DNA of 53,443 nt from Enterococcus sp. DIV0660C (GTDB lineage Bacteria > Bacillota > Bacilli > Lactobacillales > Enterococcaceae), in contig NZ_JAFLWA010000024.1 in assembly GCF_017316125.1 (NCBI RefSeq), positions 1 through 53,443 on the forward strand, in the 5' to 3' direction. Each line of letters starts with the position of its first letter. Position 1 is the stretch's first letter. Below, piece by piece: positions 3,998-46,593 of this stretch. The notes under the pieces were generated by a model. That model did not search any database. It saw only the letters and a program-made list of their open reading frames with translations, and was not told the origin of the DNA. Made by a program: the position numbers and the translations under genes.

Positions 3998-4983
3998 CGA
4001 GTAGAAAGAAGAGTCGTTTTATTTGGCTACTTATAGTAGTAAGTACGATACTTTTTTTATTAGCTGTTGCAAATGGTGTAGCAGAAGTAACGGTGAAAGA
4101 TTTGTGGTTATCCATTGTTCAATTTGATCCAACGAATCAAGCACAACAAATTTTACGAACGATTCGACTCCCACGAGTGCTAGGCGCATTTGTTGTTGGT
4201 AGCAGTTTTGCGCTAAGTGGTGCGTTGATGCAAGGTGTGACACGTAATCCATTGGCAGATTCTGGGTTATTGGGAATCAATGCAGGTGCGTCTTTAGCTA
4301 TGGCTATTAGTTTTGCTTTTTTACCAGATGCTTCTTCTTTTCAAACGTTTTTGATTTCTTTGATGGGGGCATTAGCAGTGACGACTATTGTGTTTGGCTT
4401 TCTCAAATTTTCCAAAATAGGCATCAATCCAGTTCAACTAATTTTAGCTGGGGTGGCGATCAGCTCATTTTTTACTGCCATTAGTCAAGCACTAACCCAA
4501 TTATTTAATTTGCAACAAGATTTAGCTTTTTGGTTTGTCGGAGGAGCAGCAAACATCACTTGGCGACAATTGACAATTTTGTTACCTGTTTATTTAGTTG
4601 CTTCAATTTGTGCTTGTTTGCTAGGTAAAGCAATCTCATTAGTTAATTTAAGTGAATCCCATGCTGTCGCACTTGGTGGAAATCCACGAAGAACGCGTCT
4701 TATTTCTTTTGGAATGGTGGCGATTTTATCTGCAATTGCTGTGTCACTTGTAGGTCCTGTTTCATTTATTGGTTTATTAGTACCACCCTTGATTCGTGGT
4801 GTTGTAGGTTCAGATTATCGGTATGTTCTACCCGGTTCTTTTTTAGTGGGAGGATGTTTAGTAATGGCAGCAGATCTAGTTGCGCGGATGATCAATCCAC
4901 CGTTTGAAACACCTTTTGGTTTAATTATTGCTTTGATTGGTGTACCATTCTTGCTTGTTCAAGTTAGGAGGGAAGAGGGATGA
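3994..4983 (+). CDS. iron-siderophore ABC transporter permease, FecCD family (first)
   Basis: Integral membrane half of the iron-chelate channel: 329 aa with about nine hydrophobic segments. Family hallmarks are the RLPRVLGAFVVGSSFALSGA region, the motif GVTRNPLADSGLLGINAGAS, and SLVGPVSFIGLLVPPLIRG near the cytoplasmic loop that contacts the ATPase. AGGAGG precedes the ATG, which overlaps the ATPase stop by 4 nt. It pairs with the following paralogue to form a heterodimer with two ATPase copies; this is known of the family, not tested here. Confidence 0.92.
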   Translation: MTSRKKSRFIWLLIVVSTILFLLAVANGVAEVTVKDLWLSIVQFDPTNQAQQILRTIRLPRVLGAFVVGSSFALSGALMQGVTRNPLADSGLLGINAGASLAMAISFAFLPDASSFQTFLISLMGALAVTTIVFGFLKFSKIGINPVQLILAGVAISSFFTAISQALTQLFNLQQDLAFWFVGGAANITWRQLTILLPVYLVASICACLLGKAISLVNLSESHAVALGGNPRRTRLISFGMVAILSAIAVSLVGPVSFIGLLVPPLIRGVVGSDYRYVLPGSFLVGGCLVMAADLVARMINPPFETPFGLIIALIGVPFLLVQVRREEG

Positions 4984-23218: not shown

Positions 23219-23483
23219 ACAGTTTAATACTTTTATGATTTGTTGAACAAGAGAGTACTTGTGCTGATTCTTGCTGAGCGAGTTCGGGTGATTGGTGGGA
23301 GCCGAATGAAGAAAACACAACGAAGCGCACTTGGAGAATTTCTGCCTTTGAGTGAATCAAAGCGGACGGTCATCTACCGATAACAGATTGAGTGGGTCTT
23401 AGTGGATAAGACAACTGGAGTGGTACCGCGGGTAATCTCGTCTCTAGCAATCACAGTAATTGTGATTGCTAGAGACTTTTTTT
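23219..23483 (+). promoter_or_regulatory. T-box riboswitch controlling argS
   Basis: Leader RNA that reads uncharged tRNA-Arg and chooses antitermination. The T-box sequence TGGTACCGCGG is at 23421-23431. The terminator GTCTCTAGCAATCACA / TGTGATTGCTAGAGAC with T7 is at 23440-23483. Stem I carries a GAGAGTAC-type AG motif near 23250 and a GGTG loop. The likely specifier codon is CGC (Arg) at 23326-23328, followed by A, in the 3' side of stem I. Conserved elements and the downstream gene agree; the exact specifier is inferred. Confidence 0.92.
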
Positions 23484-43897: not shown

Positions 43898-44245
43898 ATG
43901 GCTAACTATCGTGACCGTCGAGTCGGTCAAGAAATTTTAAAAGAAGTCAATGATATTTTACGTAAAAAAGTTCGTGATCCTCGAGTTGAAAACGTGACGA
44001 TCACTGATGTACATGTAACAGGTGATTTACAACAAGCAACCATCTATTACAGCATCTTATCTGATCTTGCTTCAGATAAGAAAAAAGCACAAGAAGGCTT
44101 GAGTAAGGCAAGTGGTTTAATCCGTCGTGAATTAGGTCATAACTTAAGTATTTACAAGACACCTGAGCTAATCTTTGAATTAGATGAGTCTGTTGGTTAT
44201 GGTAACCACATCGATGAGCTGTTGCGTAATTTGAATAAGGACTAA
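43898..44245 (+). CDS. rbfA: ribosome-binding factor A
   Basis: 30S maturation factor, 115 aa, KH-like fold. It has [23 protein letters not shown] and [13 protein letters not shown], typical of RbfA. AGGAGG precedes the ATG and it follows infB by 24 bp. In relatives truB and ribF come next; here a terminator, a CRISPR array and a lipoprotein gene intervene. Confidence 0.96.
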
Positions 44246-44328: not shown

Positions 44329-44466
44329 TTGGACAAGGAGTTCCTATGTTATAATAAACAAAAATACGCTCTTTGAAATAAAAATATTCAAATTATGAGC
44401 ATTCAAACTGAAGTTTTGCTATGAACGAATAGTGCGATTACGGAACCTCAAAAAATTTTATCCGAG
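44329..44466 (+). promoter_or_regulatory. CRISPR leader with probable pre-crRNA promoter
   Basis: AT-rich leader directly 5' of the first repeat. It includes an extended -10 (TGTTATAAT, TATAAT at 44350-44355) with TTGGAC 15 bp upstream. The segment AACTGAAGTTTTGCTATGAA…AATAGTGCGATTACG (44406-44442) closely resembles the leader of type II-A arrays of Streptococcus pyogenes, and the leader ends TCCGAG at the repeat junction, similar to the leader-anchoring ends of that type. This fixes the array's orientation. Confidence 0.75.
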
Positions 44467-44635
44467 GTTTTAGAGCTATGTTGTTTTGAATGCCTCCAAA
44501 ACTCCCGGGCCGTAAAGTTTAGTGATTAGTTGAGTTTTAGAGCTATGCTGTTTTGAATGCCTCCAAAACAAATGTGAACATTCTTGATTTCATCTTCGTG
44601 TTTTAGAGCTATGCTGTTTTGAATGTAAAGCTACC
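44467..44635 (+). CRISPR. orphan type II-A CRISPR array, 3 repeats and 2 spacers
   Basis: 36-nt repeats at 44467-44502, 44534-44569 and 44600-44635. All start GTTTTAGAGCTATG, the type II-A form closest to S. pyogenes and unlike E. faecalis in the middle, and end GCCTCCAAAAC. Spacers are 31 nt (44503-44533) and 30 nt (44570-44599). Repeat 1 has T instead of C at position 15. The last repeat matches for 26 nt and then degenerates, as terminal repeats usually do. No cas gene and no tracrRNA are in the window, so Cas9 and tracrRNA would have to act from another locus. Confidence 0.93.
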
Positions 44636-44677
44636 GAGTTTTGATCATTATCCAAATAATTTAAGACAACTTAACCA

Positions 44678-44710
44678 AAACATTACTCATGTATCGAGTA
44701 ATGTTTTTTT
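44678..44710 (+). terminator. terminator downstream of the CRISPR array
   Basis: AAACATTACTC / GAGTAATGTTT with a 7-nt loop and T run. It would define a pre-crRNA of about 350 nt. The extended -10 of the lipoprotein gene (TGTTATAAT, TATAAT at 44713-44718) overlaps its end. Confidence 0.85.
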
Positions 44711-44805: not shown

Positions 44806-45324
44806 ATGAAAAGAGTAATTGGGTTAAGTATGGTTGGTTTGACTTTGTTTCTTGCTTCATGCGGGAAAACGGAGCAAACTACTTCAAATGAAACTTCACA
44901 GTCAATGATTCAAACGAGTGAAACGACAGCAATGACTACTTCTGAAGTGACAACAAGCGATTCAAAAACGGCAACAAGTATCAAAGAAACGAACACAACC
45001 GTAACGACAACACAAGCAAGTTCAACAGATCAAAACACAAATACCTCAGCAGCAACAGTTACAGATTCATCAACAAATGTAACGAATGAACCTACATTTA
45101 CACCAGAACAAAAGCAAGCGTTAGATGCTATTTATGCAAAGTATCCTGAGTATAAGGATTCAGATATTGCTTTTATCTTTTGGCAAATGATTGATGATGA
45201 TTATCTTTTCAAAGCTTATAGTCTTTCTATGATTGAACAAGGCGGTTCAGGTACATTGACCTTTTTCCGAGTATCACCGACAGGAGAAGTGCAAGAAACA
45301 GATCCTAGTGGAAACCCGTATTAA
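44806..45324 (+). CDS. Ser/Thr-rich lipoprotein of unknown function
   Basis: 172-aa surface lipoprotein. Signal peptide with lipobox FLASC (Cys19), then a Thr/Ser-rich, mostly uncharged tether of about 85 residues. A compact C-terminal domain of about 75 residues follows (FTPEQKQALDAIYAKYPEY…IAFIFWQMIDDDYLFKAYSLS…TLTFFRVSPTGEV). I do not recognise the domain; length and layout recall DUF4767-like lipoproteins of Lactobacillales. ATG 44806 follows a GGGG-type site; a long leader separates it from its promoter at 44713. It lies between the CRISPR array and truB and ends at a strong terminator. Confidence 0.82.
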   Translation: MKRVIGLSMVGLTLFLASCGKTEQTTSNETSQSMIQTSETTAMTTSEVTTSDSKTATSIKETNTTVTTTQASSTDQNTNTSAATVTDSSTNVTNEPTFTPEQKQALDAIYAKYPEYKDSDIAFIFWQMIDDDYLFKAYSLSMIEQGGSGTLTFFRVSPTGEVQETDPSGNPY

Positions 45325-45669: not shown

Positions 45670-46593
45670 ATGGAAGGGCTATTACCGTTATGGAAAGAAC
45701 GTGGGATGACAAGTCATGACTGCGTATTTAAATTAAGGAAAATATTACATACCAAAAAAATCGGGCACGGTGGAACGCTAGACCCAGATGTAGATGGTGT
45801 GTTACCAATCTGTATTGGAAAAGCAACAAAAGTGATTGAATATTTAACTGATTCTGGAAAAACCTACCAAGGCGAAATTACGTTGGGATTCAGTACGACA
45901 ACGGAAGACAAGTCTGGTGAAGTGGTTGAAGAACAAGCAGTAACAGAACGTATCTCAGAAGAAAAAATCGATCAAATCATGGCTTCTTTTATTGGGGAGA
46001 TCACGCAAATTCCGCCAATGTATTCGGCGGTGAAGGTCAATGGCAAACGACTTTACGAATACGCACGTAATAATGAAATAGTTGAACGTCCAAGTAGAAA
46101 AGCTCAAATTTATCGTTTTGAACGCACGAGTGAATTAAACTGGGATCAAGAAAACGGGTTGTTATCATGGCATTTTGAAGTTGAGTGTGGTAAAGGAACC
46201 TATGTGCGAACACTTGCTGTTGATACAGGGAAAAAACTAGGTTTTCCTGCTCATATGTCAGATTTGACAAGGACAGCAAGTGCAGGAATGAATCAAAAAC
46301 AAGCAATCACTTTGGCACAGGTAGCTGAATATATGGCAAACGGAACTATTTCTGAGTATCTATTACCGATCGAGGCAGGGGTTACGAAGTTTCCACGAGT
46401 AGATATCAGTGAAGCTGTTTGGCAAAAAGTTAAGAATGGTATGCGTTTGGATTACAAAGTCTTTGGCTTATCAACGATGCCAGACCAAGAAATTGCTTTG
46501 TTTTATCAAGATAAAGTTGTTAGTATCTATCAACCTAATCCAAAGGAAAAAGATAAATTAAAACCAAGTAAAGTGTTAAGAAATGAGGTATAA
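45670..46593 (+). CDS. truB: tRNA pseudouridine(55) synthase
   Basis: Makes pseudouridine at position 55 of the T loop of all tRNAs; 307 aa. Begins MEGLLPLWKERGMTSHD, with catalytic Asp38 in GHGGTLDPDVDGVLPI and the family segments YQGEITLG, QIPPMYSAVKVNGKRLYEYAR and CGKGTYVRTLAVD. GGAGAGC precedes the ATG. It has its own promoter because the array and lipoprotein gene separate it from rbfA. ribF starts 4 nt after its stop. Confidence 0.96.
   Translation: MEGLLPLWKERGMTSHDCVFKLRKILHTKKIGHGGTLDPDVDGVLPICIGKATKVIEYLTDSGKTYQGEITLGFSTTTEDKSGEVVEEQAVTERISEEKIDQIMASFIGEITQIPPMYSAVKVNGKRLYEYARNNEIVERPSRKAQIYRFERTSELNWDQENGLLSWHFEVECGKGTYVRTLAVDTGKKLGFPAHMSDLTRTASAGMNQKQAITLAQVAEYMANGTISEYLLPIEAGVTKFPRVDISEAVWQKVKNGMRLDYKVFGLSTMPDQEIALFYQDKVVSIYQPNPKEKDKLKPSKVLRNEV

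Follow-up and report, generated by a model that had tools for sequence, protein, structure and literature searches.

The window analyzed here, a 53,443-nucleotide stretch of the genome of Enterococcus sp. DIV0660C, carries a small CRISPR array between rbfA and truB that is very likely a genuine, probably functional satellite of the single type II-A CRISPR-Cas system of its genome, used in trans. The array is an orphan only locally, as the Cas system is present in the same genome on another contig, C13. We infer that the array is transcribed and processed, that it takes part in interference, and that it acquires spacers in trans. In the mechanism that we propose, a single transcript would start at the array's own promoter, run through the leader, the two spacers and the terminal repeat, and stop at the array's own terminator. 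This pre-crRNA would pair with the tracrRNA, whose gene lies next to cas9 on C13. Pre-crRNA:tracrRNA duplexes are processed by RNase III, and the crRNA would then guide Cas9 to NGG-flanked targets, for example in Enterococcus podophages. New spacers would be inserted in trans by Cas1, Cas2, Csn2 and Cas9 at the leader–repeat junction that is common to the four arrays of the genome.

Organization of the array

In the region 44329–44710, a promoter-like sequence is followed by a leader of 72 nt, by three repeats that enclose two spacers, and by a terminator, which together form a compact unit (Table 1). The earlier note had described the repeats, spacers, leader and terminator at the rbfA–truB site, and all of them are in place. 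With up to three mismatches allowed, the 26-nt repeat core occurred three times in the window, compared to a mean of 0 in 100 shuffled sequences. The features are those of a type II-A array: 36-nt repeats beginning GTTTTAGAGC, unique spacers of about 30 nt, and a GAG/GTTT leader–repeat junction, a motif described in PMC5382924.

Table 1. Features of the rbfA–truB interval in the window.
Feature	Position	Strand	Remarks
rbfA	43898..44245	+	Upstream neighbor; Pfam PF02033
Putative promoter	44329..44355	+	TTGGAC at 44329–44334, 15-nt spacer, extended -10 TGTTATAAT at 44347–44355; read by eye
Type II-A leader	44395..44466	+	About 72 nt; carries GTGCGATTACG, terminates in TCCGAG; kin to the other three leaders of the genome
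Repeat 1	44467..44502	+	36 nt; ATGTTG and GCCTCC variants; matches Rfam RF01335 / CRISPR-DR22 on the opposite strand
Spacer 1	44503..44533	+	31 nt; credible target not found
Repeat 2	44534..44569	+	36 nt; GCCTCC variant
Spacer 2	44570..44599	+	30 nt; 25/30 likeness to the DNA polymerase gene of Copernicusvirus (Enterococcus phage), AGG PAM
Terminal repeat	44600..44625	+	Shortened to 26 nt; degenerate 3' end
Rho-independent terminator	44677..44707	+	12 pairs and a T tail; closes the transcription unit
Lipoprotein-like gene	44806..45324	+	172 aa; in three sister species only; outside the array unit
truB	45670..46593	+	Downstream neighbor; Pfam PF01509

The putative promoter was not reported by a consensus scan because its 15-nt spacer is shorter than the 16–18 nt that the scan requires. 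A sister species, Enterococcus sp. MSG2901 (G001), has the same -10 block. A version of the terminator is also found in E. thailandicus, where there is no array. The two complete repeats differ from the consensus repeat of the genome at 1–2 positions. They share the GCCTCC variant, which occurs in none of the 12 other repeats of the genome; among the window repeats, the ATGTTG variant is confined to repeat 1. The window repeat is presumably nearer to the repeat of S. pyogenes than to that of E. faecalis. Elsewhere in the window, a T-box leader (RF00230) was observed at 23234–23448.

The Cas system and the other arrays of the genome

The earlier note had found no cas gene or tracrRNA near the array and had suggested that a Cas9 locus elsewhere might serve it in trans. 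The first held up, and the second is supported. When the genome's own Cas9, Cas1, Cas2 and Csn2 proteins were used as queries, no match was obtained anywhere in the window at an E-value of 0.001, and the only anti-repeat-like matches in the window were the array repeats themselves. Contig C13, apart from the window array, carries the cognate type II-A genes in the order cas9–cas1–cas2–csn2, followed by another array. The cas9 gene is the single match in the genome and is one open frame that encodes HNH, RuvC, REC and PAM-interacting domains; its presence rules out the possibility that the genome lacks cas genes altogether. The genome has one tracrRNA, located upstream of cas9 on the opposite strand. 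Its anti-repeat is GGTAGCATTCAAAACAACATAGC, which differs slightly from the one predicted in the earlier note. The calculated duplex energies of the tracrRNA with window repeats 1–3 were -38.0, -33.7 and -29.2 kcal/mol, respectively, compared to -34.4 kcal/mol for the genome consensus repeat, making repeat 1 the best partner among the window repeats. The window array is therefore an orphan in the usual sense, having no cas genes nearby and sharing its repeat with the cas-linked array elsewhere in the genome.

In the whole genome (2.6 Mb in 65 contigs), we found 15 repeats in four arrays and no matches to a reversed control pattern. The window array has three repeats and the C13 array four, and two places on contig C16 have six and two; three of the four arrays are cas-less. 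A leader of about 72 nt is common to all four. The window leader is the most divergent, being identical to the other three at 61–63 of 72 positions, compared to 64–66 of 72 among those three. The 100 nt upstream of the four leaders align at chance level. We also observed a TPP riboswitch (RF00059) at L011:8437–8538, on a contig that also carries two cas-less arrays.

The rbfA–truB site in related genomes

The site was compared in 15 genomes of the genus, including that of the window. The rbfA gene is present in all 15, and an array lies next to it in two, the window's genome and that of sister species MSG2901. The interval was seen whole in 10 other genomes and in part in G003, G008 and G013, and no repeat motif was found in the sequence seen. 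The earlier note had taken rbfA and truB to be normally adjacent. They are indeed neighbors in gene order, but the length of the interval is variable: the window has 1.4 kb between rbfA and the start of truB, 7 of the 15 genomes have about 0.3–0.9 kb, and G004, G006 and E. thailandicus have about 3.2–3.5 kb.

The MSG2901 array at this site has seven repeats and six spacers, none of which is shared with the window array. In E. thailandicus (G012, strain DSM 21767), the rbfA–truB interval has no array. It does contain the terminator and the lipoprotein gene (74% identity), and prophage-like sequence that includes a repressor-type gene takes the place of the array. Since E. thailandicus carries the lipoprotein gene without an array, the gene is not part of the array unit, and its association with the array, which the earlier note had pointed out, is incidental. 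The array could have been gained in an ancestor of the window's species and MSG2901, or it could have been lost in E. thailandicus. Both are possible, given the prophage-like insert that occupies the E. thailandicus site.

A wider search of the family with the leader and repeat as query gave matches in 22 of 105 genomes. Among the 30 loci listed, with flanks of up to 1.5 kb, no array lay beside rbfA or truB. Most of the loci outside the genus, among the matches listed, adjoin cas1–cas2–csn2, which indicates that having several leader-bearing orphans is not the rule there. Listeria kieliensis (contigs L087 and L090) has three places with a leader plus repeat, the leader likewise carrying the GTGCGATTACG block.

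Arrays across the genus

With the window leader and first repeat as query, matches were obtained in 10 of the 15 genus genomes. Leader-bearing arrays occur in eight of these, the very genomes that have a Cas9 match; in G002, a stop codon interrupts the matched Cas9 stretch. The seven genomes without a Cas9 match yielded no leader-bearing array, in a search that divergent leaders could escape. Each of the eight Cas9 genomes has at least one leader-bearing array without a cas gene within 1.5 kb on either side, mostly on a contig other than that of cas9. In G002, G005, G009, G010 and G013, the cas-less array has just 1–2 countable repeats.

The window array could conceivably make a Cas9-independent regulatory RNA, similar to the Listeria rliB CRISPR, which is processed by PNPase (PMC4894674). 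That precedent, and the fact that the window array is a compact unit between conserved genes, would fit this explanation, but we consider it extremely improbable: the spacers, which would supposedly be the targeting part of such an RNA, are entirely different in the sister species, and leader-bearing arrays were not found in the 7 of 15 genus genomes lacking a Cas9 match.

The cas site and two other cas-less sites are common to the window's species, MSG2901 and E. thailandicus. A fifth cas-less site, with a different repeat, GTTTAGAATG, is found in MSG2901 and E. thailandicus (L046:4842–5009; L051, reverse strand, 4246–4812); it has eight counted spacers in E. thailandicus and is decayed in MSG2901, with two degenerate repeats. 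A second clade of four species has its own, different cas-less site in common.

In G003 and G006, the query matched only a leaderless repeat-like element. Leaderless 36-mers of this kind, one or two in each genome, were observed at L057:4929 (G003), at L058, reverse strand, 3893 (G006) and at L059:4908–5009 (G009). They have a conserved tail, and immediately downstream of them is a gene for a coiled-coil protein of the membrane or secreted type; two of the three species have no Cas9 match. In G009, a 30-nt spacer separates the two repeats, and the coiled-coil gene is apparently a remnant. These elements are either relict arrays or repeats retained for some other reason.

Maintenance and leader–repeat pairing

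The distribution of the repeat variants bears on whether the window array has acquired spacers. Both complete repeats carry GCCTCC and repeat 1 alone carries ATGTTG. Since the leader-proximal repeat is the one that is copied, this pattern suggests that a spacer was acquired at least once after the first mutation arose. Another explanation would be that the array is readable but frozen, its crRNAs being made and used in trans, with acquisition made inefficient by a drifted leader and repeat. Several features would fit a frozen array: there are only two spacers, where the sister species has six at this site; the leader has diverged more than the other three leaders of the genome; and the array has a private repeat variant and weakened leader–repeat pairing. 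We nevertheless regard this as rather unlikely, as the repeat variants point to later acquisition and the leader end, CCGAG, and the junction are intact.

At the rbfA–truB site, the leaders of the window's species and MSG2901 are identical at 67 of 72 positions, compared to 86 of 102 in the upstream flank and 83 of 108 in the downstream flank. The excess conservation of the leader has p-values of 0.10 against the upstream and 0.004 against the downstream 100 nt. Judged from this comparison, the leader appears to have been kept somewhat better than its flanks, a modest effect for which the upstream contrast is not significant. At the cas-less site C16b, the leader (67/72) and the flanks (90/102 and 88/102) are little apart.

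The earlier note had also left room for a relict, that is, an array without function that is retained by chance. The array is short, it has given a single target lead, and it is found at rbfA–truB in just 2 of the 15 genus genomes, as a relict might be. However, its pairing with the tracrRNA is intact, the sister species has six different spacers at the same site, and the leader is somewhat better conserved than its flanks. The relict alternative is thus weakened, and we consider it very unlikely.

In type II-A systems, the transcribed leader is reported to pair with the first repeat in a leader–repeat hairpin (Liao 2022, as reported in PMC12080349). The 5' part of the window leader, GCATTCAAA, is complementary to the 3' half of the repeat. 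The calculated pairing of the window leader was -11.4 with its own first repeat and -13.3 with the usual repeat of the genome. The fold had a z-score of -1.3, and 27% of shuffled leaders reached its number of pairs. The eight arrays of G002, G005, G009 and G013 had z-scores of -3.4 to -6.0. These leader statistics exclude G003, G006 and G009_C9, which have no leader, and the leader alignment also excludes G001_C11, G012_C11 and Listeria valentina. As the pairing is not significant for the window array, we dropped it as a proof of activity.

The same complementarity, with the 5' end of the leader being the reverse complement of the 3' half of the repeat, could be read as the terminal inverted repeats of a mobile element. 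We did not adopt this reading because the complementarity is explained by leader–repeat RNA pairing and because Listeria kieliensis leaders prefer the Listeria repeat: the two leaders tested gave -19.5 and -12.6 kcal/mol with the Listeria repeat versus -10.5 and -5.4 kcal/mol with the Enterococcus repeat. No target-site duplication could be read, since the sole close relative without the array has the prophage-like insert at this site.

Spacers and their targets

In the window's species, MSG2901 and E. thailandicus, we counted 100 spacers (11, 43 and 46, respectively), 89 of them distinct, with a script that omits gaps outside 26–34 nt, misses some truncated last repeats, and gives low counts for E. 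thailandicus, where two arrays contain draft Ns, and for small arrays in the other clade; the E. thailandicus count includes within-array repeats. In the same order of species, 8 of 11, 30 of 43 and 38 of 46 counted spacers lie in cas-less arrays. No two arrays and no two genomes have an exact spacer in common; spacers recur only within E. thailandicus arrays. One near pair, matching at 26 of 30 positions, links a cas-less array of MSG2901 to the cas-linked array of that genome, as if both arrays had sampled related elements.

In E. thailandicus DSM 21767 (L049 and L050), identical spacers recur within several arrays, and one array has a partial duplication of leader, first repeat and spacer. 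Some of these duplications may be artifacts of the assembly, which contains Ns.

Six of the 89 distinct spacers were searched one by one against phages, and two of the six results were taken seriously: window spacer 2 (E-value 0.01) and spacer 4 of the MSG2901 rbfA array (E-value 1e-4). The latter matches an endolysin gene at 28 of 30 positions, with AAG in place of the NGG PAM. Window spacer 2 matches DNA polymerase genes of Copernicusvirus phages: that of Enterococcus phage Efmus1 at 25 of 30 positions, followed by AGG, and that of phage MDA1 at 24 of 30 positions, followed by CGG. All 15 phage records with an E-value of 0.3 or better are Enterococcus phages matched in the homologous gene, the best E-value being 0.01, and at an E-value of 10, 33 of 117 records are Enterococcus phages matched at the DNA polymerase gene. 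As these matches are homologues, they amount to one observation. The mismatches cluster near the PAM, which suggests that the matched phages are relatives of the source of the spacer and not present targets.

No credible target for spacer 1 was found in phages, plasmids, IMG/VR or the 105 family genomes. Exact 22–23-mers of both window spacers had no match in IMG/VR, neither spacer had a credible match in plasmids, and with up to three mismatches both found only the array itself among the 105 family genomes.

Comparison with known systems

Why bacteria keep arrays apart from their cas genes is a standing question. In one survey, arrays that have identical repeats reportedly gained spacers at similar rates both near to and far from the cas locus, and definitive empirical evidence for the proposed benefits of distant arrays is described as lacking (Fehrenbach 2026, PMC12814883). 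In the clade of the window's species, each cas operon is accompanied by four to five arrays, which sit at conserved sites, and its relatives have one small orphan. As type II-A systems usually have one array, the clade and its relatives form a natural series for comparing acquisition and use between distant and cas-linked arrays. The arrangement is unusually dispersed and would be worth an acquisition experiment.

A broader reading is tentative and, in our estimation, unlikely: in this Enterococcus clade, the leader–repeat module might be a dispersing unit with at least five chromosomal sites, most of them kept across species with complete turnover of spacers. One Cas9 operon would then run a distributed memory, with only a minority of the spacers in the cas-linked array, rbfA–truB would be one of the more recent landings, and the arrays may divide labor.

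The kind of array described here, an orphan used in trans, is already known from CRISPR2 of E. faecalis, and multiple arrays in E. thailandicus have been published. What is new is the rbfA–truB site, the conservation of position with turnover of spacers, and the share of spacers held by the orphans in three species. In a literature search that had most subscription journals outside its reach, we found no paper naming rbfA, truB and a CRISPR array together, and no title among the matches listed was that of a site-by-site study of multiple or orphan type II-A arrays in Enterococcus.

The window array resembles E. faecalis CRISPR2 in being a type II-A array without cas genes, in sharing the repeat of a cas-linked array, and in having variable spacers and a fixed chromosomal site (PMC4580645, PMC4894674). 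CRISPR2 can be used in trans by Cas9 with an NGG PAM (PMC4580645, PMC4894674), and it provides defense only when the CRISPR1 cas9 and tracrRNA are supplied (Price 2016, PMC4894674). It is the one orphan in every E. faecalis genome studied in these reports, with or without CRISPR1-Cas. In the window's genome, by contrast, three orphans coexist with a cas operon, and we detected no leader-bearing array in the seven of 15 relatives without a Cas9 match. The earlier suggestion that the window array could be the counterpart of CRISPR2 in another species stands as to kind, a cas-less array probably used in trans, but the array is one of three and not a single counterpart.

Orphan arrays have been noted in E. 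thailandicus (PMC5341189), and strain a523, which has type II cas genes, is credited with five (PMC10165109) or six arrays (PMC5701470). In E. thailandicus DSM 21767, the cas site and two orphan sites are those of the window's genome; the difference is that no array lies between rbfA and truB. The GAG/GTTT junction of the window array is likewise that of Groups 1 and 2 of Van Orden 2017 (PMC5382924), and the leader end, ATCCGAG, is an exact fit to neither ATTTGAG nor CTRCGAG given there. Finally, type II-A loci are reported to average 1.07 arrays (PMC12814883), compared to the four arrays per locus found here.
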